A DNA stretch of 53,961 bases from an uncultured Mycoplasmatales bacterium (lineage in GTDB: Bacteria; Bacillota_I; Bacilli_A; UBA3375), in the NCBI GenBank assembly GCA_937936465.1, contig CALDDH010000002.1, positions 1 through 53,961 on the forward strand. The letters are read 5' to 3'. Both the position numbers and the translations under genes were made by a program. Under the pieces are notes generated by a model. That model had not been told where the DNA came from, searched no databases, and saw only the letters and a list, made by a program, of their open reading frames with translations. The stretch's first letter is position 1. Each line of letters begins with the position of its first letter. Positions 14,068-33,486 of the stretch are shown here, in pieces.

Positions 14068-15082
14068 AATTTTCCTCTCTAATTATTTTTTTAATTGCTA
14101 TATCTTTTCTTTCCATAAAATGTGATGATACTATCTTTCTAATTGTTCGTGTTTTTCCACGAATTAAAAGCGTTTCTGTTGTAGCCATATCTTCGTCCAT
14201 TTTAACACCACCTAAAATCATTCCATCTGTAATTCCTGTCATTGACATAATAATATTATCTGTTTTACATAAATCACTTAATTGTAATTTCTGATTAACT
14301 TGAACATTCATCTCTTTACATCTTTTTATTTCTTCTTGAGATATTTGATCGTTTTCTAAACTTTGTCCTTTACAATCAGTACGTGAAATTAATTTAGCTT
14401 GCATATTACAACCCATTGATTTCATAATTGCCGCTGATATTACACCTTCTGGTGCTCCACCAATTCCATAAAACATATCAATCTTTTCATGAGGCATAGC
14501 AACCATGATACTACATGCAACATCTCCATCTGGAATTGATATTACTTTTACACCTGCTGTTTGCAATTGCTCAATAACTTTAAAATGTCTTTCTTTATGT
14601 AAGGTCATAACCGTCATTTGATTAATTCTTTTACCTAAAACTTTTGCCACATTAATTACATTTTCTAAAATCGGCAAGTCAATATCAATTGCATCTTTAG
14701 CCTTATATGAAACCATCAACTTTTCCATGTACATATCAGGAGCTTTAAGTAAATTACCAACTTGTGATAGAACAATTACAGATACAGCGTTATCTTGTCC
14801 TAAACCAACCATTCTTGTTCCATCAATTGGATCAACTGCAATATCAACTTTATCAACTCCAAGACCAACTTTTTCTCCGATGTATAGCATTGGTGCATTA
14901 TCAATTTCACCTTCACCTATAACTACCTTCCCATCGATTTTAATTGTATTTAAAACATGACGCATCGCTTTTACTGCTGCTAAATCTGCTTTTTCTTTTT
15001 GACCTTTACCAATCCAATTATGGCTTGTAAGGGCAGCTGCTTCTGTTACTCTAGATATTTCTAGTGCTAGTTCTCTTTTCAA
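14060..15082 (-). CDS. glpX: Class II fructose-1,6-bisphosphatase (GlpX)
   Basis: GlpX hydrolyses fructose 1,6-bisphosphate in gluconeogenesis. The metal-binding motif [13 protein letters not shown] (about residues 83-95), an earlier GEGEID element, and the substrate motif [13 protein letters not shown] near 207 are visible. The length of 340 residues matches GlpX. Its stop overlaps the purA start and its start overlaps the nfo stop. An operon with purA and nfo is not the Bacillus arrangement. Confidence 0.95.
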
Positions 15083-15957
15083 TTTTCATCCTTTTCAATC
15101 CAGTCATCAAATTTTTGTGCTCTTAGCATTGCTATTTCTTTTTTATATGGTGGATATAATTTATTTATATAAGGTGTTTCTAATATCTTAACAATATTAT
15201 CTAATCTAGGGTGGTGAACAATTTGATTTAATATGTCAAACCCAATATATCCATATCCAAGATTTGCATGTCGATCTTTAGATGCTCCTCTTTCATTTTT
15301 TGAATCATTAATATGTAATACTTTTAATTTATCTAACCCAATCAAATCATCAAATTGATCGAGTACATCATCAATATTCTTTAAATTATAACCTGCATCA
15401 TGAATATGACATGTATCTAAACAAACACCTAATTTATCGCTTAATCTAACATTATCAATAATATACTTTAATTCTTCAAAACTACGCCCACATTCTGTTC
15501 CTTTTCCCGCCATAGTCTCTAAACATACAATAACACTTTGATCAGCTAAAAGCACTTCATTTAACCCTTTAACAATTGAATCTAAACCAACTTGAGCTCC
15601 CTCTTTAACATGGGCACCAGGATGTAGGACAATATATTTACTACCAACAGCTTCTGTTCTTTGAATCTCTTTCTTTAAAAACTCAACAGCTATTTCATAT
15701 GTTTCTGGTTTAATAGTATTACCTAAATTAATAATATATGGTGCATGAACAACTATGTTTTCTAAATCAATTTTACTTTCTTTTAGTAATTCATGTGCTT
15801 CTTTAATAAACAATTGATCAATTGGCTTACGTGATGTATTTTGAGGTGCACCAGTATATATCATCATTGCGTTAGCATCATAACTAAGTGCTTCTTTAAC
15901 AGCACCTAAGAACATATTAGGACTTTTAAACTTTACATGAGATCCAATTTTAAGCAT
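15079..15957 (-). CDS. nfo: Endonuclease IV (AP endonuclease)
   Basis: This TIM-barrel, zinc-dependent enzyme cleaves at abasic sites in base-excision repair. Zinc ligands are visible in [45 protein letters not shown] and [21 protein letters not shown]. The length of 292 residues is normal. It overlaps pyrG by 8 bases and glpX by 4. Confidence 0.97.
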
Positions 15958-23057: not shown

Positions 23058-23694
23058 TTTCTAATATCTCTATTCTTTGATTCATTTGTGTATTAAACAA
23101 ATAACTTCCAGCAACTAAAATATCAGCACCAGCTTTTTTAATTTCTTTAAATGTATTTCCATTTACTCCACCATCTACTTCTATTAAAAAGTTATACATT
23201 ATTTTTAATTGATTTAATTGTTTTATCTTTTGTGTACTTGATTCAATATATGTCTGTCCACCAAACCCTGGGTGAACACTCATAACAACAACAACATCAA
23301 CCTTTGGTAAATAATCAATGATTTGCTCAATCTTTGTTTCTGGTTTAATTGCTAATCCAACTTTAATATTATTTTTTTTAATTAATTTAATTAAACCATC
23401 TATATCTTCATCTATTTCAAAATGAATAGTTATTAATTCAAGATCTAACTTAATATAATCTTCAATATATTTAGTTGGATTTTCAATCATTAAGTGAACA
23501 TCCAATTTTTTATTTGATTTATTTTTAATAGATTTAATTAAATCATGTCCAAAAGTTAAATTTGGAACAAAATGTCCATCCATTACATCTAGATGAATCC
23601 ATTGACAATTGCTATTGTTTAATTTAATTATTTCACTTTCTAAATTTAAAAAATCAGCTGCTAATAATGATGGTGCAATAATTACTTTATTCAT
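23050..23694 (-). CDS. rpe: Ribulose-phosphate 3-epimerase
   Basis: This TIM-barrel enzyme interconverts ribulose 5-phosphate and xylulose 5-phosphate. Active-site motifs are HLDVMDGHFVPNLTFG, VHLMIENP, VMSVHPGFGGQ and EVDGGVNGNT. The length of 214 residues is normal. It overlaps rsgA by 4 bases and thiN by 8. Confidence 0.96.
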   Translation of the reverse strand: MNKVIIAPSLLAADFLNLESEIIKLNNSNCQWIHLDVMDGHFVPNLTFGHDLIKSIKNKSNKKLDVHLMIENPTKYIEDYIKLDLELITIHFEIDEDIDGLIKLIKKNNIKVGLAIKPETKIEQIIDYLPKVDVVVVMSVHPGFGGQTYIESSTQKIKQLNQLKIMYNFLIEVDGGVNGNTFKEIKKAGADILVAGSYLFNTQMNQRIEILENE

Positions 23695-24548
23695 TTCAAA
23701 CCCCTAACTTGATGCAACATTTTTATATAATAATTATATCTAGTTGCAAGTATTTCTTGATCTTCAACTAACTTTTTAATTTGACAATTAGGCTCTTGAT
23801 CGTGGAAACAACCTTTATACTTACAACCCGGTGAATACTCAACAAAATCAGGATAATTATCACGTAATTGATTATCTTTAAAATCTAAATCTAAAGATGA
23901 AAATCCTGGTGTGTCAATTAAGTATATATTTTTATAGCTATAAAAAGTAACTTCACGCGTTGTGTGTTTACCTCTTCCTAAAACCCTTGATATTTCTTGG
24001 GTTTGAAGATCTAAATTAGGAATCAGATAATTAATAATAGTACTTTTACCAACTCCACTTTGACCAGTTATGACATATTTATCTGATGTAAGATTTAAAT
24101 TTAATTGATCTTGGAAATCATCATATGGACTATAAATAACAGTATATCCAACTTTTTGATAATAAGACATTGTTTTTTTTAAACTACTCAACTCAGCAAT
24201 ACTTAATAAATCAATTTTAGTTATAATGATTATGATATCTAATTTATTGATTTCCATAATTAAAATCATTCTATCAAGTAGTCCTAAGTTAAGTTTAGGT
24301 TCAATTGCCGATGTTACTAAAATACAATTTTGAACATTAGCAATTAAAGGCCTTTGTAAGTAATTAGTTCTTTTTTTAACTGCAATAATATAGTTGAAAT
24401 CAAGATCTACTTCAACATCATCACCAACAATTATTTTTTGTTTATTTTGTTTTAATTTTTTAGATGCTCGGCATTCAATTATTTGATTATCAATTGATAC
24501 ATAAAAAAAACTAGATAATGCTCTTATAACTACAGCAGTCTTAATCAT
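23691..24548 (-). CDS. rsgA: Ribosome small subunit GTPase RsgA
   Basis: RsgA is a circularly permuted GTPase that acts late in 30S assembly. An N-terminal OB domain comes first. The order G4 (TKIDL) then G1 (GQSGVGKST) then G3 (DTPGF) shows the permutation. A C-terminal zinc knuckle has C-x4-C-x-H-x5-C (CKYKGCFHDQEPNC). Length 285 residues. It overlaps prkC and rpe. Confidence 0.96.
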   Translation of the reverse strand: MIKTAVVIRALSSFFYVSIDNQIIECRASKKLKQNKQKIIVGDDVEVDLDFNYIIAVKKRTNYLQRPLIANVQNCILVTSAIEPKLNLGLLDRMILIMEINKLDIIIIITKIDLLSIAELSSLKKTMSYYQKVGYTVIYSPYDDFQDQLNLNLTSDKYVITGQSGVGKSTIINYLIPNLDLQTQEISRVLGRGKHTTREVTFYSYKNIYLIDTPGFSSLDLDFKDNQLRDNYPDFVEYSPGCKYKGCFHDQEPNCQIKKLVEDQEILATRYNYYIKMLHQVRGLK

Positions 24549-26248
24549 TGCTCTGACTCATCTGTTGAAGTTTGAAGTAATAATGAATCATCTTGATTTG
24601 GACAAATTCCATCACTAACAGTTATTTCTACTGTACTTCCATCCTCAACTATAGATCCAGAACTAGGTGATTGCTTAACTACAATTCCATCACCATATAT
24701 ATCATCACATTGATATGTACGTGAAATATTTATATCATTATCATCAGCCCATGTTGATACTTGATCTTCTTTTAATGTAATAAAGTTTGGCATACTAATT
24801 TCTTTTTTACCTTCACTGACTGTAATAGTAATTTCATCACCTTTTTCTAGTTCAGATCCTGAAACAGGATCTTGATCAATTATTATTCCTTGAGTTACAG
24901 AATTTTGTTCATATTCAATTTTAACTTTTAACCCTAATTCTTCTAAAGTTGTTTGGACATCTGTATAAATTAATCCAGAATAATCATCTAATATTATTTT
25001 TTCTTTACCAGAGGATACAGTTAAAATGATTATTTGATCTTTTTCTAAATCTGTATTAGCTTTAGGTTTTGTTTCAATAATTGTGTTTTCATTATATTCA
25101 TCACTTATTTGATATTTAATTTCTATTTTATCTTCATCTACACCAATTATTTTCAAGATATTTTCAGCAATATCAATGTTTTCACCAATTAAATCAGGCA
25201 TTTCATTAGTCTTATAATTAGAAATAAATAAGCCAATTATTAAGCATGAAATTACTATTAATGAAGTTATTAAAATTATTTTTTTTATTTTATTAACTTT
25301 TTTCTTTTTTTGTTCTTTCTTATTTTCTTCATCTAAATTAAAATCACCATCTAACTTAATTGTTTTTTCAAGTTCTTCTTTTTCTAATAGATCATCTGCA
25401 AAAAATATTTTTTCAACATTTTCTTGTTCAACTAAAAATACTTTATCTAAATCTTTTAATACTTCTTCGGCATTTTTATACCGATTGCTTAGTCTCTTTG
25501 CTGTAGCTTTTATAACAATATTTTCTAAGCTTTGACTCACTTGACTTACTTGCATTTTGATTGATGGAAGTGGCTGATTTAATTGTTTCATCATAATTAC
25601 TGTTGGTTTTTCTCCTGTAAATGGAGCACTACCACAAAGTAATTCATACATTAATATTCCAATTGAATAAATATCAGTTTGAGCACTGCTTTCACTTCTA
25701 TTTAATGTTTCAGGAGCAACATATTGTGGTGTACCCATCAAACTTTGAGTTCTTGTTATATCTTCTTCCATAATATCAGCAATTCCAAAATCAGTTATTT
25801 TAATTTTTTTTTCTATATCAATTAAAATATTTTGCCCTTTAATATCTTTGTGAATAACATTGCTTTTATGCGCATGCTGAAGGCCACTTAATATCTTTTT
25901 ACTAATTTCAACAGCTTCTGTTGGACTTATTTTACCACTTATTTTTAAGTATTCTTTTAAAGTCATTCCTTCAACATATTCTTGAGCAATAAAATGACGA
26001 TCTTTTTCCTGGTCATATCCAACATCATATATTTTAATAATATTGGGATCATCTAGCATACTTATAAGCTCAGCTTCTCGCTTGAAATACTTTAATTTTC
26101 TTTGATCTATATTATCATTTTTTAATACTTTTAATGAAATCTCCAGTTCATTTATTCGATCATATGCTAAATATACATTTGCTGTTCCACCTTCACCAAT
26201 TTTACGAATTATTTCATATTGTCCACATACTATATCTTTAGCTATCAT
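24545..26248 (-). CDS. prkC: PASTA-domain serine/threonine protein kinase
   Basis: An N-terminal Hanks kinase domain (about 1-270) has the glycine loop GEGGTANVY, a catalytic loop HKDIKGQNIL, DFGIAD, and an activation loop RTQSLMGTPQYVAPE. A juxtamembrane acidic/basic linker is followed by one transmembrane helix (about 325-345). Three external PASTA domains (about 350-545) come last. Such kinases sense muropeptides or lipid II and phosphorylate division and wall proteins, so this is good evidence for peptidoglycan or a related wall. The 567-residue protein overlaps its phosphatase gene, as is typical. Confidence 0.94.
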   Translation of the reverse strand: MIAKDIVCGQYEIIRKIGEGGTANVYLAYDRINELEISLKVLKNDNIDQRKLKYFKREAELISMLDDPNIIKIYDVGYDQEKDRHFIAQEYVEGMTLKEYLKISGKISPTEAVEISKKILSGLQHAHKSNVIHKDIKGQNILIDIEKKIKITDFGIADIMEEDITRTQSLMGTPQYVAPETLNRSESSAQTDIYSIGILMYELLCGSAPFTGEKPTVIMMKQLNQPLPSIKMQVSQVSQSLENIVIKATAKRLSNRYKNAEEVLKDLDKVFLVEQENVEKIFFADDLLEKEELEKTIKLDGDFNLDEENKKEQKKKKVNKIKKIILITSLIVISCLIIGLFISNYKTNEMPDLIGENIDIAENILKIIGVDEDKIEIKYQISDEYNENTIIETKPKANTDLEKDQIIILTVSSGKEKIILDDYSGLIYTDVQTTLEELGLKVKIEYEQNSVTQGIIIDQDPVSGSELEKGDEITITVSEGKKEISMPNFITLKEDQVSTWADDNDINISRTYQCDDIYGDGIVVKQSPSSGSIVEDGSTVEITVSDGICPNQDDSLLLQTSTDESEQ

Positions 26249-26978
26249 AATGCACTCCTTTCTCTATACCAACTACAGTAATATTATCTTTACCACCTGT
26301 TGTTAAAGCTTTTTCAACTAGAAGTTTAACTTTACGATCAATTGTTTTATCTAAATTACTAATTTTTTCTATTCCTTGATCATCCACAACTTCTGTTAAT
26401 CCATCTGAGCAAATTATTAAATTATATTTTTTAGGCAAACTAAATTCTAAGATATCAATTGTAATCTTTTTACTTGTGCCAAGGGCTTGAGTTAAAACAT
26501 TACGAAAACTATTATTTTTAGCGCTCTCTGTTGTTAAAGTCCCTGCATCAATCATACTTTGAACAAGTGTATGATCTTTAGTTAATTGAGTTATTTGTGT
26601 TTGATCAATATAATATATTCTTGAATCACCAATATGACCAATATACATTTTATTATCAGATAAAATTAAGCAGCTGATTGTTGTACCCATTTTTTCTAAA
26701 TTAATATCCATAAGTGATTTTTTATATATTTTATCATTTGCTGCTTTAATTGATTGAACTAAAAAATCACTATAGTCTGATCTGAATTGATAGCTTAAAA
26801 ATTGTTCTTTCATAATATCAACAGCCATTTGTGATGCAACATCACCTGCATTATGGCCACCCATACCATCAGCAACAACATATAATGTATCACCAAAATG
26901 ATTTTTAATAATTAAAAAAGAATCTTCATTATTTTCACGAAAATTCCCAATGTCACTTTCAACACTATGCTTGATCAT
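26238..26978 (-). CDS. prpC: PP2C-family protein phosphatase (PrpC/Stp)
   Basis: This 246-residue metal-dependent phosphatase reverses the PASTA kinase. Metal and phosphate motifs are VRENNEDS-like (FRENNEDSF), VADGMGGHNAGDVAS, GHIGDSRIYY, ICSDGLTEVV and GGKDNITVV. It overlaps rlmN by 14 bases and prkC by 11, so both signalling partners are made together. Confidence 0.95.
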   Translation of the reverse strand: MIKHSVESDIGNFRENNEDSFLIIKNHFGDTLYVVADGMGGHNAGDVASQMAVDIMKEQFLSYQFRSDYSDFLVQSIKAANDKIYKKSLMDINLEKMGTTISCLILSDNKMYIGHIGDSRIYYIDQTQITQLTKDHTLVQSMIDAGTLTTESAKNNSFRNVLTQALGTSKKITIDILEFSLPKKYNLIICSDGLTEVVDDQGIEKISNLDKTIDRKVKLLVEKALTTGGKDNITVVGIEKGVHYDS

Positions 26979-28011
26979 TTTTTCTCGTTTCTTTATATCT
27001 TAATTGTCCACAAGCTCCATCAATATCTGATCCTTTTTGTTGTCTTAAAGTAACTTGTATTTTATTTTTTTTCAAAATTTTATAAAATTCTTCTGTTCTT
27101 TTATAAACTGAAGTTTCATAAGGAACTTCTTTTACTGAATTAAATGGAATTAAATTAACATGGCAATTCATCCCCCTTAATAATTGAACTAATTCTAATG
27201 CTTCCTTTGGTGAGTCATTAACATCTTTTAACATTATATATTCAAAACTAACACGACGATTAGTTTTATTTTGATATTCAACAATTGCATTCATAACTTC
27301 CTTGATATTATATGCATTATTAATTTTCATAATTTTACTACGTATTTTATCGTTTGGTGCATGTAAAGATACAGCTAAATTAACTTGTTTATCATATTCA
27401 GCAAAATCTTTTATTCTATTTGCCATCCCACTTGTAGATACAGTTATATGTCTTGCACCAATATTCAATCCTGAATTATCATTAATAACATTTAAAAATT
27501 CTAATAAATTATCATAATTATTAAATGGTTCACCAATTCCCATAACTACCAAATGAGAAACTCTTGCTTCTTGTTTTTTTAAAATTTTTTGCCAGTAAAC
27601 TACTTGAATAACTATTTCCCCTGCTGTAAGATTACGATCTAATCCTAATAATCCAGATGCACAAAAACTACAACCAACAGCACACCCAATTTGGGTTGTA
27701 ACACATACCGAATGTCCATGATTATATTTCATTAATACTGTTTCTATTAATTTACCATCATCTAACTTAATTAATAATTTTTGCGTTCCATCTGCACTTT
27801 CTTGATGTTTAACAATTTCTAAATTTGGTAATTTAAAATTAGCCTTTAAAATTTCAATTGTTTTTTGATCAATATTGTTCATTTGATCAAAATCTTCTAC
27901 TAAGTGAATATATAGCCAGTTCCAAATTTGTTTTACTCTAAATTGTGATATTCCTAAATCGATACATTCTTTCTTTAATTGTTCAAACTCAAAATTATAT
28001 ATACTTTGCAT
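26965..28011 (-). CDS. rlmN: Dual-specificity 23S rRNA/tRNA methyltransferase RlmN
   Basis: This radical SAM enzyme methylates C2 of adenine 2503 in 23S rRNA and A37 in some tRNAs. The [4Fe-4S] CX3CX2C motif is in GCAVGCSFCASG, and the C-terminal methyl-carrier cysteine is in GACGQLRY. Length 348 residues. It heads the rlmN-prpC-prkC-rsgA-rpe-thiN cluster, as in Bacillus. Confidence 0.96.
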   Translation of the reverse strand: MQSIYNFEFEQLKKECIDLGISQFRVKQIWNWLYIHLVEDFDQMNNIDQKTIEILKANFKLPNLEIVKHQESADGTQKLLIKLDDGKLIETVLMKYNHGHSVCVTTQIGCAVGCSFCASGLLGLDRNLTAGEIVIQVVYWQKILKKQEARVSHLVVMGIGEPFNNYDNLLEFLNVINDNSGLNIGARHITVSTSGMANRIKDFAEYDKQVNLAVSLHAPNDKIRSKIMKINNAYNIKEVMNAIVEYQNKTNRRVSFEYIMLKDVNDSPKEALELVQLLRGMNCHVNLIPFNSVKEVPYETSVYKRTEEFYKILKKNKIQVTLRQQKGSDIDGACGQLRYKETRKNDQA

Positions 28012-28083: not shown

Positions 28084-29070
28084 TTAATCTAATCTAGTTA
28101 TCTGATCTGATTGTTCTTTATCATAACCTGTTGCAATTAATGTTACTGTTTTATAATTCTCATCTACATCTGGTATATCTTTAAGTCCTGATAAGATTGT
28201 AAATTCATATCCTAAATACTGCAATAAATAATCTTCCACATCATAAGTCTCACCTGGTGTTAGGTAATCTAAATTACCACCTATTAAAACAATAAATTCT
28301 GTTGATCCTGAAATTGAAATTTCTAAAATATTTGATTCAATTGCTTTTTCTAATGCTCTTAGTAAGTTTTCTGATGGAGATAGTTCATTAGAATTAGATT
28401 GACCAATTCCAATCACTGCAAGTCCTTTATCTTTTAAAGACATTTTCAATGTATTTAAATCTATATTAGCACTTACTGTTGATACAGAATCAAGCATTGT
28501 AATAATTGCTTCAACTGCAGTCTTCAATATTTCATCTGGTAATACAAAGGCATCTTCAATATACTTATCCTTATGATTTTCGATTAATTTTTCATTTGGT
28601 ATAACAATTGTAATATCTGTTGACTGCTCCATTTTCTTTATACCTTCTAATGCAACTTGCATTCTTGTTTTACCTTCAAATGCAAATGGTTTAGTAACTA
28701 TGGCAATTGTTAAAATACCCAAACTCTTGCTTAACTCTCCAATGAATGGAGCTGCTCCTGTTCCTGTTCCACCACCCATACCTGAAGCTATAAAAACAAT
28801 ATCAGCATCACTTAAATATTCAACTAATTCTAATGATGATTCTTGTGCTGATTCACGACCAATTTCAGGAATAGCACCTGCACCAAGTCCTTTAGTTAAT
28901 TCTTTACCAATATGAACACGTTCATCAGCTTGCGCATTGTTTAAAGCTTGAGCATCTGTATTGATAGAAAAAGTTTCAATTCCCTTAATTTTAGATTTAA
29001 TAATGTAATCAATTGTATTAGATCCCCCTCCACCGACACCAAAAACTTTTATCTTATAGTTTGAATTCAT
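28084..29070 (-). CDS. ftsZ: FtsZ-family tubulin-like GTPase, divergent and tail-less
   Basis: The GTP-binding half is canonical: GVGGGGSNTI (11-20), NTDAQAL (38-43), and the tubulin signature GMGGGTGTG (97-105). The T7 synergy loop reads N202-I-D204-L-N-T207, where E. coli FtsZ has N-x-D-x-x-D212. The second acid is Thr here, and the usual Pro-Gly before the loop is gone. The protein stops at residue 328, eleven residues after the last core strand, so linker and C-terminal FtsA/SepF-binding peptide are missing. The gene has its own promoter and terminator and is not in a dcw cluster. It may be the division FtsZ altered, or an extra FtsZ-like protein. Confidence 0.88.
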   Translation of the reverse strand: MNSNYKIKVFGVGGGGSNTIDYIIKSKIKGIETFSINTDAQALNNAQADERVHIGKELTKGLGAGAIPEIGRESAQESSLELVEYLSDADIVFIASGMGGGTGTGAAPFIGELSKSLGILTIAIVTKPFAFEGKTRMQVALEGIKKMEQSTDITIVIPNEKLIENHKDKYIEDAFVLPDEILKTAVEAIITMLDSVSTVSANIDLNTLKMSLKDKGLAVIGIGQSNSNELSPSENLLRALEKAIESNILEISISGSTEFIVLIGGNLDYLTPGETYDVEDYLLQYLGYEFTILSGLKDIPDVDENYKTVTLIATGYDKEQSDQITRLD

Positions 29071-29093
29071 TTCGCTCCTTTATTAATTATACT

Positions 29094-30304: not shown

Positions 30305-31429
30305 TCATGCTTTAATTTGTTTTTTATGTTTCTTTCTTTCTAGTCTATATGTTTCTTTGGAGATAATCATTGCACCAATTAATCCAAAACTCATAAATAC
30401 AAAAGAATTAAGACCTTTAGAAATAAATGGTAATGTTACTCCTGTCATTGGTATAACACCAGTTACTCCTCCAATATTTATAAATGCCTGCAGTAAGATT
30501 ACACTAGAAATTCCAAAGCAATAAAGCATCCCAAAACGTTCATGTGCATTAATTCCTATTTTAAATAAAATATATGCAATTATAAAGTACATTGAAATTG
30601 TAAATAAAACACCTATAATACCTAGTTCTTCTGCAATGATTGCAAAGATAAAATCTGAATCAACAACAGGTAAAAACCCTGCTTTTTGAGCTGAATTCAT
30701 AAAGCCACTACCTGTTATACCTCCATTTGATATTGCAATAAATGATTGAACTATTTGATAACCATTTCCACCGGCATCAATAAAAGGATTTAACCATGTA
30801 TGTATTCTTTGAATTTGATATTCAGACATTGTTAGAAATAAAATTGGAATTGTTACTGTAAAAAAGATTAAAAATAAATATAGTAAATGTTTAACTTGTT
30901 GACCATTATAAAAAAGCATTAAAAGAATAACACCTAAGATAATTAATGCTCCACCTAAATCTGGTTGTAAAATTATTAATATTATTCCACTTAATGGAAA
31001 AAGTAATTTTTTAAATAAATCATTTATATCTGGTTCATAATCTAGTTCACCAAATATAAATGATAGATATAATATTACTGCTATTTTATAAAACTCCATT
31101 GGTTGAAAGTCAAAGAAGAAAAAATCAATTACCATTTTAGCTTGTTCTCTTTCTTCTCCAATTAATAGTACAAGAACTAAAAATATAAATGATAATCCAA
31201 ATATATAAACGCTTAAACTTTTCATTAAATAATAAAATTTTTTAGTTCTAGGCATGACAATTGTTATTATAAGAAATATAACTATTATAATAAATATTTG
31301 TTCAAAAATATACATGTATGGGCTTCGGTCACTTACTATCATTTTAATATAACCAGCACTATATACCATTAATATACCAAATAGACTAATTGTTAACCAT
31401 GATAGTAATAAAAAACTATGTCTTTTCAT
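30305..31429 (-). CDS. SEDS-family peptidoglycan polymerase (RodA/FtsW)
   Basis: This 374-residue polytopic protein has about ten transmembrane segments. SEDS hallmarks are FFDFQPMEFYKIAVILYLS, ISNGGITGSGFMNS, the catalytic-acid region VVDSDFIFAIIAEELG, and TGVTLPFISKGLNSF. In the last motif the usual S-Y-G-G-S-S is altered to S-K-G-L-N-S. SEDS proteins polymerise glycan strands with a class B PBP; no PBP is in the window. It sits next to ftsEX; whether it is RodA or FtsW cannot be settled from sequence alone. Confidence 0.88.
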   Translation of the reverse strand: MKRHSFLLLSWLTISLFGILMVYSAGYIKMIVSDRSPYMYIFEQIFIIIVIFLIITIVMPRTKKFYYLMKSLSVYIFGLSFIFLVLVLLIGEEREQAKMVIDFFFFDFQPMEFYKIAVILYLSFIFGELDYEPDINDLFKKLLFPLSGIILIILQPDLGGALIILGVILLMLFYNGQQVKHLLYLFLIFFTVTIPILFLTMSEYQIQRIHTWLNPFIDAGGNGYQIVQSFIAISNGGITGSGFMNSAQKAGFLPVVDSDFIFAIIAEELGIIGVLFTISMYFIIAYILFKIGINAHERFGMLYCFGISSVILLQAFINIGGVTGVIPMTGVTLPFISKGLNSFVFMSFGLIGAMIISKETYRLERKKHKKQIKA

Positions 31430-31433
31430 TGTA

Positions 31434-32321
31434 TTAAACCTTTAAATAATTTCTAATTGCTATAATTGAACCGATTGAACCTACAACCATTCCTACAATA
31501 GGTAAATAAATTAAAACGCTAGTCAATAAGTCAGTTGGGACTAATAATGTATGTGCAAATAATTTTACGATATCTAAAGTTAAAAAATAACTATATGAAT
31601 AAAAAACTAATATAAGTGATATTAAACCACCCGCTAAACCAATTAATAATCCTTCCATAATAAATGGATAACGAATAAACCAATTTGTTGCACCAACTAA
31701 TCTCATAATTGATATTTCATTTTTTCTAGAATCAATTGTTAATTTAATTGTATTAGTAATTAAGAAAACTGTAATAATAAATAAGATTATTAATAAAAAA
31801 AGCATAAATAATTGAACAAATTCTAATGCGCTTACAAGTGAATTTATTCCTTGTTCTTCACCATAATCAACTTCTTGAACACCTTCTATTTCAAGAATAG
31901 ACTTTGATGCTTCTTCTAAGCTATATTCATCACTCTCAAGTGTTACTTCATATACTGGGTATAAAGGATTATCTTCACCCGAGAAATATGTTTTCATAAG
32001 TTCTTGATCTTCGGGATCATCAAAACTTGTTACTAAGTTATTTAACTCATCATCAGGTGATGAGAAAATCGATTCATTAACTCCTTCAACTTCTAAGATT
32101 TCTTTGTTTATTTGAGTTATTTCATCTTCTTGAATACTTGGGTCTAAGTAAACATTGATTTTCAAACTTTCAAAAACACTGTTAGTTAAGTGATTTGTAT
32201 TAGATCCAATAATTAATACTGTTCCAAAAACAAATAATGTTACTGTAACTAGTGTCATTGATGCAATTGTCATTGACATATTTCTTCGCATGCTTTTTAA
32301 TGCTATAATAATATTATTCAT
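31434..32321 (-). CDS. ftsX: Cell division protein FtsX
   Basis: This 295-residue permease-like protein has an N-terminal transmembrane helix (about 17-40), then an external domain (about 45-165). Three C-terminal helices follow, with the cytoplasmic loop IDSRKNEISIMRLVGATNWFI. FtsEX links the cytoplasm to wall hydrolases at division or elongation. It overlaps ftsE by 8 bases. Confidence 0.93.
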   Translation of the reverse strand: MNNIIIALKSMRRNMSMTIASMTLVTVTLFVFGTVLIIGSNTNHLTNSVFESLKINVYLDPSIQEDEITQINKEILEVEGVNESIFSSPDDELNNLVTSFDDPEDQELMKTYFSGEDNPLYPVYEVTLESDEYSLEEASKSILEIEGVQEVDYGEEQGINSLVSALEFVQLFMLFLLIILFIITVFLITNTIKLTIDSRKNEISIMRLVGATNWFIRYPFIMEGLLIGLAGGLISLILVFYSYSYFLTLDIVKLFAHTLLVPTDLLTSVLIYLPIVGMVVGSIGSIIAIRNYLKV

Positions 32322-33486
32322 AAATGTAACCTCCGTATACTTGATTTACAATTTTTCCATCTTTTATTCTTACAACACGTTTTTTATAGCGATTAACTAT
32401 TCCAACATCATGTGTTGCCATCAATATTGTTGTTCCACTTTTATGTATATCCATTAATATTTCCATAATTCCAATTGCATTTTCTGGATCTAAATTACCA
32501 GTTGGCTCATCACAAACAATAATTTCAGGATCAGCTACAATTGCCCTTGCAATAGCAGCTCTTTGTTGTTGCCCCCCACTTAATTCATTTGGATATTTAT
32601 CTTTATGTGTTGTTAAACCAACTTTTTTCAATACTTTTAGAACTTGTTCTTTACGATCTTTTCTTGGATACCCAATTACTTCTAAACTAAATTTAACATT
32701 ATCATAAATTGTTTTATCCTCAAGTAATTTATAATCCTGAAAAATAACTCCAACTTTACGTCTTAATTCTGGTAATTTCTTTCTTTTTAATTTATTAACA
32801 TCAGATCCTAATACGATAAGTTCCCCCTCAGTACCTTTTAATTCACGATATATTAATTTAATCATTGATGATTTCCCTGCACCTGAAATACCAACAAAAT
32901 AAACAAATTCTCCTTCATGGATTTTTAAGTTAATTCCATTTAATATTTTCTCACGTTCTATTTGTAAAAATATATCTTTAAACTCAATGATTGTAGGGTT
33001 CATTGATTTTTCTTGTTTATATTCATTAAACGAACTGCCCTCTTTGTCAAAGACTTGATTTGACTGATTTACTTGCTGATTTTCTTTTGGCTGGTTATCA
33101 ACTATTATTTTTTCTATTTCAGAAGTTTTTTTAAAATCAAAATCTTGCTCTTCTGTTATTACAGAATCAACATATTCTATTTTTTCTTCTTCTGCCAATT
33201 TAGGAGGATCTTGTTCAATATCTTTTTGTTCTATTTTATCTTGATCATTTTTATTATCACTGGTTTTTAAATCATCATTCAAATAATCAAAATCTTTTAA
33301 AGTTTCCTCTTTTGTAAATTCAGCACGATGCATTTCTTTTTGTTTCATTTCATTATATGTTACATTAATTTGATCATCTAATCTTTCATTCAAATCTTTT
33401 ATTTGCTCGGTTCTAAATGTAATAGTTTCATTTTTTTTAGTTTTATCTAATAACTGTTCAATATGATCTTTATTTTCTTTTGACAT
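32314..33486 (-). CDS. ftsE: FtsE with long acidic N-terminal extension
   Basis: The C-terminal 229 residues (from about 162) are a standard FtsE: Walker A GISGAGKSS, signature LSGGQQQRAAIARAI, Walker B VCDEPTGNLD. Ahead of it lie about 160 residues rich in E, D, K, N and Q. These start with a likely coiled coil (about 5-60) and continue as low-complexity acidic sequence. AGGAGAAAA lies directly before the ATG at 33486. No ribosome-binding site precedes the internal Met 162, so the extension is translated. Ordinary FtsE is about 228 residues. It partners FtsX, encoded next. Confidence 0.92.
   Translation of the reverse strand: MSKENKDHIEQLLDKTKKNETITFRTEQIKDLNERLDDQINVTYNEMKQKEMHRAEFTKEETLKDFDYLNDDLKTSDNKNDQDKIEQKDIEQDPPKLAEEEKIEYVDSVITEEQDFDFKKTSEIEKIIVDNQPKENQQVNQSNQVFDKEGSSFNEYKQEKSMNPTIIEFKDIFLQIEREKILNGINLKIHEGEFVYFVGISGAGKSSMIKLIYRELKGTEGELIVLGSDVNKLKRKKLPELRRKVGVIFQDYKLLEDKTIYDNVKFSLEVIGYPRKDRKEQVLKVLKKVGLTTHKDKYPNELSGGQQQRAAIARAIVADPEIIVCDEPTGNLDPENAIGIMEILMDIHKSGTTILMATHDVGIVNRYKKRVVRIKDGKIVNQVYGGYIYE

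Follow-up and report, generated by a model that had tools for sequence, protein, structure and literature searches.

A candidate two-subunit FtsZ filament encoded by two unlinked ftsZ genes in an uncultured Mycoplasmatales bacterium

Introduction

In the FtsZ filament of Staphylococcus aureus, the active site is shared between neighboring subunits. The pocket subunit contributes N44, D46, Q48, G72 and R143, and the T7 loop of its neighbor contributes N208, D210 and D213 (PMC8936486). The single mutants D46A, R143Q, N208L, D210N and D213N each abolish assembly (PMC8936486).

Several related filaments contain two kinds of subunit. In alpha/beta-tubulin and in Asgard AtubAB, one interface is dead through loss of the T7 acid, and at the other an intact T7 acid completes the site (PMC13394414). 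The reason why microtubules are built from a heterodimer in which one GTPase site is silent is still debated. BtubA and BtubB of Prosthecobacter are described as a two-subunit bacterial filament of the tubulin type with a heterodimer intermediate (PMC2746283), encoded by genes in one operon (PMC5372463). Chloroplast FtsZ1 and FtsZ2 (FtsZB and FtsZA in red algae) form one ring, in which FtsZ1 lacks a tail and the C-terminal peptide is kept by FtsZ2 alone (PMC8142252). In the Odinarchaeal FtsZ paralogues, the motifs GGGTG[T/S]G and NxDxx[D/E] are kept in both (PMC12583498).

Here we analyze two FtsZ proteins of an uncultured Mycoplasmatales bacterium (GTDB lineage Bacteria; Bacillota_I; Bacilli_A; UBA3375). 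The first, Zw, is encoded in the window, by which we mean the whole stretch of 53,961 nucleotides analyzed (GenBank assembly GCA_937936465.1, contig CALDDH010000002.1). The second, Zc, is encoded elsewhere in the same genome.

Results

Zw has an intact GTP pocket and a remodeled T7 loop

Zw is an FtsZ-type open reading frame with an ATG start (Table 1). It matches the Pfam Tubulin/FtsZ GTPase domain (PF00091) with 150.8 bits (cut-off 33) and misses the cut-off of 27 for the C-terminal domain with 23.7. Its score against the NCBIfam ftsZ model (TIGR00065), 291.2, is under the curated cut-off of 295.2, and FtsZ is still the nearest family. An AlphaFold2 model has the FtsZ fold (pLDDT 82.6, pTM 0.84). 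The best PDB matches are the FtsZs of S. aureus, B. subtilis and E. coli, with TM-scores of about 0.85. The model confirms the fold but not the T7 geometry; residues 196-201 of the loop are poorly defined and of low confidence. For both Zw and Zc, FtsZ chains lead the list of PDB matches, and alpha/beta-tubulin is absent from it.

The initial annotation of the window, made from the sequence alone, had described Zw as an FtsZ with a canonical GTP pocket, a threonine in place of a catalytic T7 aspartate, no preceding Pro-Gly, no linker or C-terminal peptide, and a monocistronic gene. This description holds. The pocket contains GGGTGTG, and none of the nucleotide-contact residues tested is missing. 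In the T7 loop the sequence is S-A-N202-I-D204-L-N206-T207, compared to P-G-x-x-N-x-D-F-A-D in other FtsZs. Two residues are inserted besides the loss of Pro-Gly, and NIDLNT takes the place of the catalytic motif NxDxx[D/E]. The position of Thr207 is occupied by Asp in 60/60 comparison FtsZs, most of them from the same class as the window organism. An E. coli FtsZ sequence served for the numbering, and the 60 sequences were used to check the residue identities. Realignment in other registers gave no replacement acid in the loop; the next one, D214, is seven residues further on and beyond the loop. After the last conserved strand (IATG), Zw continues for 13 residues and ends, without linker or C-terminal peptide.

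Table 1. Features of the Zw gene and its surroundings (positions in the window)
Feature	Position	Strand	Details
Zw, FtsZ with intact GTP pocket, remodeled T7 loop and no C-terminal tail	28084..29070	-	328 aa
Ribosome-binding site of Zw	29075..29081	-	AAAGGAG
T4 phosphate loop of Zw, residues 97-105	28756..28782	-	GMGGGTGTG, canonical
T7 loop region of Zw, residues 196-207	28450..28485	-	SVSTVSANIDLNT; Pro-Gly lost, two residues inserted
Codon of Thr207	28450..28452	-	ACA; replaces catalytic Asp (E. coli D212 / S. aureus D213)
Intrinsic terminator directly after the Zw stop codon	28061..28085	-	10-pair; consistent with a monocistronic gene
Division/wall genes upstream of Zw	30305..33486	-	hemW-like gene between them and Zw
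FtsW/RodA family	30305-31429	-	
FtsX	31434-32321	-	
FtsE	32314-33486	-	

Zw likely has its own transcript, because a strong terminator follows the gene. There is a promoter match at 29123-29095, but of a quality expected by chance.

FtsE, encoded upstream, is extended at its N-terminus, ahead of the ABC domain, by roughly 170 residues with a high content of Glu, Asp and Lys. Downstream of Zw, rlmN and the genes for a PP2C phosphatase, a PASTA kinase and RsgA follow in one run (23691-28011), a cluster familiar from walled Bacillota. Although the genome is small, the PASTA-kinase cluster, FtsW/RodA, FtsEX and MreB (L083) together suggest that the cell has a wall of peptidoglycan.

A second ftsZ occupies the usual division cluster

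A search for another ftsZ, for example in a dcw cluster, had been proposed in the initial annotation. It revealed Zc, a protein of 498 residues encoded on contig C6 of the window genome (G000), at 14191-15687 (L045:10192-11688). The gene order is ftsA-like, Zc, sepF, yggT, ileS. An ftsA-ftsZ-sepF-yggT-ileS cluster is the usual place of ftsZ in Bacillota. Zc ends in an FtsZ-type peptide, IPNFFKKK. Its TIGR00065 score is 231.4, also under the cut-off, with FtsZ still nearest. Compared to Zw, it is weaker against the Pfam N-terminal domain (94.9), and it passes the C-terminal domain with 43.2.

The only other genome of the order examined (G001), from another genus, contains orthologues of both proteins, of 335 (Zw) and 607 residues (Zc). 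Its Zc gene lies between an ftsA-like gene and sepF with ileS downstream, and the protein ends in IPDFFRR. Identity between the two genomes is 54% for Zw and 50% for Zc; between Zw and Zc it is only 25-30%. The two genes are unlinked; in G000 they lie on different contigs, which put Zc out of reach of the initial annotation. The neighborhood of Zw differs between G000 and G001. Both genomes are incomplete drafts: G000 is a metagenome assembly of 0.99 Mb and 87% complete, and G001 is 93% complete. A third, ordinary FtsZ was not found in either; at these levels of completeness, the chance of its being missing from both is about 1%. Contamination or an artefact was rejected as the source of the pair, since orthologues of both proteins occur in an independent genome.

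Zc has a long, acidic N-terminal extension (L045:10192-10600 in G000, about 140 residues; L042:6886-7453 in G001). The two extensions start similarly, with MKDKQTTFDMF in G000 and MKEQTTLDLF in G001, and in G001 a tandem repeat with a unit of 63 bases (21 residues) is present in about five copies. The N-terminus of Zc may be a second docking peptide. The FtsA-like protein encoded beside Zc is strongly degenerate in both genomes (L045:9090-10178 in G000; L042:7453-8550 in G001). In G000 it has a weak SHS2 remnant only and no recognisable ATPase domain. No match to the FtsA ATPase domain (PF14450) was found in either genome except MreB in G000, and this match was rejected as a true second FtsA. 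Possibly the FtsA-like neighbor is a pseudo-ATPase form of FtsA whose changes accompanied those in the FtsZ pair.

Zw and Zc are altered in opposite halves of the active site

All eight shared-site residues are kept in each of the 60 comparison FtsZs, as are those lost from the Zc pocket (N44, D46, G107 and R143). Both Zc proteins carry N44D, D46S, G107R and R143L/D. They thus lack Mg-site and arginine-finger residues and the full GGGTG[T/S]G motif (GGGTGTG is changed to GRGTGSV), whereas N208, D210 and D213 of the T7 loop are intact. In both Zw proteins the whole pocket is kept and T7 is remodeled. Aligned with its G001 orthologue, the window Zw shares the absence of Pro-Gly, the insertion of two residues, the change from FA to LN and the missing tail, but not the D213T substitution, which is found in G000 only. 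The G001 protein retains Asp at this position (NIDLND), and the T7 defect is therefore strict only in G000.

We counted the active-site residues available at each possible interface in G000. The Zw pocket facing the Zc T7 loop has 8/8 and is the only complete pairing. The opposite arrangement, the Zc pocket facing the Zw T7 loop, retains four of the eight (Q48, G72, N208 and D210). The homo-interfaces would contain 7/8 (Zw/Zw) and 5/8 (Zc/Zc). In G000, each subunit thus lacks the catalytic half that its partner keeps; in G001, the T7 loop of Zw is remodeled but has its Asp.

Conservation of the two filament faces is mirrored

We compared conservation over whole faces, whose limits were drawn manually after the four contact regions described for S. 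aureus FtsZ (PMC8936486). The pocket face comprises T1-T6 and H6-H7, and the T7 face comprises T7, the start of H8, H10, S9 and the D97 patch. The measure was mean conservation relative to the 60 controls, with the value of the pocket face subtracted from that of the T7 face. The two Zw proteins score -2.36 and -2.65, and the two Zc proteins +1.44 and +1.65. The controls score -0.25 +/- 0.29 (range -1.10 to 0.38), and both families fall outside this range. The contrast between Zw and Zc was reached by 0/20,000 label permutations. The effect comes from T2, T3, T4 and T5 in Zc and mainly from T7 in Zw. H10, S9 and the H6-H7 loop diverge about equally in both.

A second measure, identity between orthologues, uses no control profile. 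For Zw it is 0.81 on the pocket face, 0.40 on the T7 face and 0.52 in the rest; for Zc the corresponding values are 0.55, 0.68 and 0.55. In a set of 791 similarly diverged control pairs, which are mutually non-independent, 0.4% match the skew of Zw and none that of Zc. The pocket-face identity of Zc (0.55) ranks at 1.3% of control pairs. By these measures, the pocket face of Zw and the T7 face of Zc are held unusually tightly, and the pocket face of Zc is relaxed. The T7 face of Zw was remodeled early and has evolved at an ordinary rate since. At several of the altered pocket positions, Zc has the same residue in G000 and G001, which speaks for reuse and against mere decay.

The pair is restricted to one order in the genomes searched

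Relatives of Zc were found neither in 395 genomes of the class nor in 392 of the phylum (E<=1e-75) beyond the two of this order. The Zw family is likewise limited to these two within the class at E<=1e-88, and both families are absent from the 393 other class genomes. In a scan of the genome collection, every FtsZ obtained, at 32-39% identity, had a normal T7 loop. The viral contigs searched contained FtsZs with a normal T7 loop and no Zc relative. In a phylogenetic tree, the Zw pair and the Zc pair each form a clean clade (100/100) on long stems (3.64 for Zw, 5.75 for Zc). Duplication and transfer cannot be told apart from this tree, because the long branches spoil placement.

Other short FtsZs were seen during these searches. 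Viral contigs L084-L091 (IMG/VR) encode an FtsZ of about 311 residues that has no tail, while its pocket and T7 loop are canonical. Its neighbor genes are similar on the two contigs compared, and relatives at 51-60% identity were found in phage records without annotation, most of which come from human faeces. In G036, a further genome of the class, a normal ftsZ is accompanied by a second, truncated FtsZ-like open reading frame of 212 residues (L043:4484-5122, contig C22). In this frame GLGGNTATSALP replaces GMGGGTGTGAAP, and it stops before the C-terminal domain.

Discussion

A mixed filament and its alternatives

The genes, their residues and genomic context, the mirrored conservation and the joint occurrence of Zw and Zc in each of the order's two genomes were observed directly. 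From these we infer co-assembly, alternation, the identity of the hydrolyzing interface and the mode of tethering. We consider it probable that Zw and Zc are two FtsZ subunits that co-assemble in a mixed, probably alternating filament, each providing one half-site of the GTPase. With slightly less confidence, we lean towards an obligate FtsZ heteropolymer for division, with one live and one dead GTPase interface, that arose within the FtsZ family independently of alpha/beta-tubulin. The evidence comes from the two genomes of this order.

At the first interface, the intact Zw pocket would be completed by the intact Zc T7 loop. GTP would bind there, drive assembly and be hydrolyzed. At the second, the degenerate Zc pocket would sit on the remodeled Zw T7 loop, a structural contact without GTP hydrolysis. 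Tethering to the membrane would have to run through Zc, because only Zc has a tail, and the tail-less Zw would be carried along. SepF, encoded beside Zc, would be a more likely tether partner than the degenerate FtsA.

The most serious rival is a filament of Zw alone, with Zc as a membrane-anchored end cap or adaptor. The T7 face of Zc would dock on the Zw pocket at one end, and Zc, having no usable pocket, would end the chain. We judge this unlikely but worth weighing, because the G001 Zw keeps D213 and with it all catalytic residues. The restriction of the C-terminal peptide to Zc, its position next to sepF and its relaxed pocket face, as if little used, also fit such a role. However, the window Zw has Thr at a position where D213N abolishes assembly of S. 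aureus FtsZ (PMC8936486), and the T7 face of Zw is far from all controls in both genomes. The altered Zc pocket residues shared by the two genomes suggest a kept interface.

The initial annotation had also considered Zw as a second FtsZ-like protein with another job. This job might be in cell shape or another internal filament; Zc alone would then divide the cell. The first half of the annotation's proposal stands: another ftsZ exists, in a dcw-type cluster and with a normal tail. Zw is also tail-less, has its own terminator and sits outside the dcw cluster in a neighborhood that varies between genomes. The second half probably does not hold, since the dcw copy has a severe defect of its own, across the active site from that of Zw. 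Among the pocket residues missing from Zc are two at which a single change (D46A, R143Q) abolishes assembly in S. aureus (PMC8936486), so Zc is unlikely to suffice for division. Zw also has ftsEX and a gene of the ftsW/rodA family close by in G000, and a separate function would make the reciprocal pattern a coincidence. We regard this reading as improbable; the evidence favors two FtsZ copies sharing one job.

Decay under relaxed selection or an assembly artefact in a reduced genome is more doubtful still. The small, incomplete metagenome assembly and the long branches are compatible with it, but it is already largely refuted by the intact reading frames in two separately assembled genera at 50-54% identity and by conservation that peaks exactly on complementary faces. 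That Zw is the only FtsZ of the organism, slow-hydrolyzing and differently anchored, deserves almost no credence: the T7 substitution and missing tail are real, but the ftsA-sepF-yggT-ileS cluster of the same genome contains another ftsZ, whose product ends in a tail of the FtsZ type.

If the mixed filament is real, a reciprocally broken FtsZ pair would be a case of a halved site in the normally homopolymeric sister family of tubulin. A single-subunit treadmilling filament could then become a two-subunit one by reciprocal loss of half-sites, and the effect of halved GTPase sites on treadmilling, polarity and division would be directly testable. To our knowledge, this would be the first bacterial Z-ring that needs two FtsZs.

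Comparison with known systems

We found no earlier description of such an FtsZ pair in the literature searched, which included few subscription papers or preprints. Canonical FtsZ of Bacilli has the same fold and a gene context like that of Zc. Unlike Zw and Zc, it combines both half-sites and the tail in one protein. BtubA and BtubB are of the tubulin type and encoded in one operon, whereas Zw and Zc are FtsZs with unlinked genes. Archaeal FtsZ1 and FtsZ2, including those of Odinarchaeota, are similar in being two paralogues per cell with differing filament or tethering properties.

Chloroplast FtsZ1 and FtsZ2 resemble Zw and Zc in pairing a tailed with a tail-less partner. The likeness extends to the tail pattern but not to catalytic completeness. 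The plant proteins show no reciprocal loss: both are catalytically complete, either one forms filaments by itself in yeast, and FtsZ1 uses its own T7 Asp (D275).

Like the proposed Zw-Zc filament, alpha/beta-tubulin and AtubAB consist of two related subunits with one interface lacking a working GTPase site. They are tubulins, whereas Zw and Zc, a candidate heterodimer, are FtsZs by sequence. In Zw and Zc, the pocket of one partner is degenerate too, so that both halves of the presumed dead site are changed, and the two genes are unlinked.
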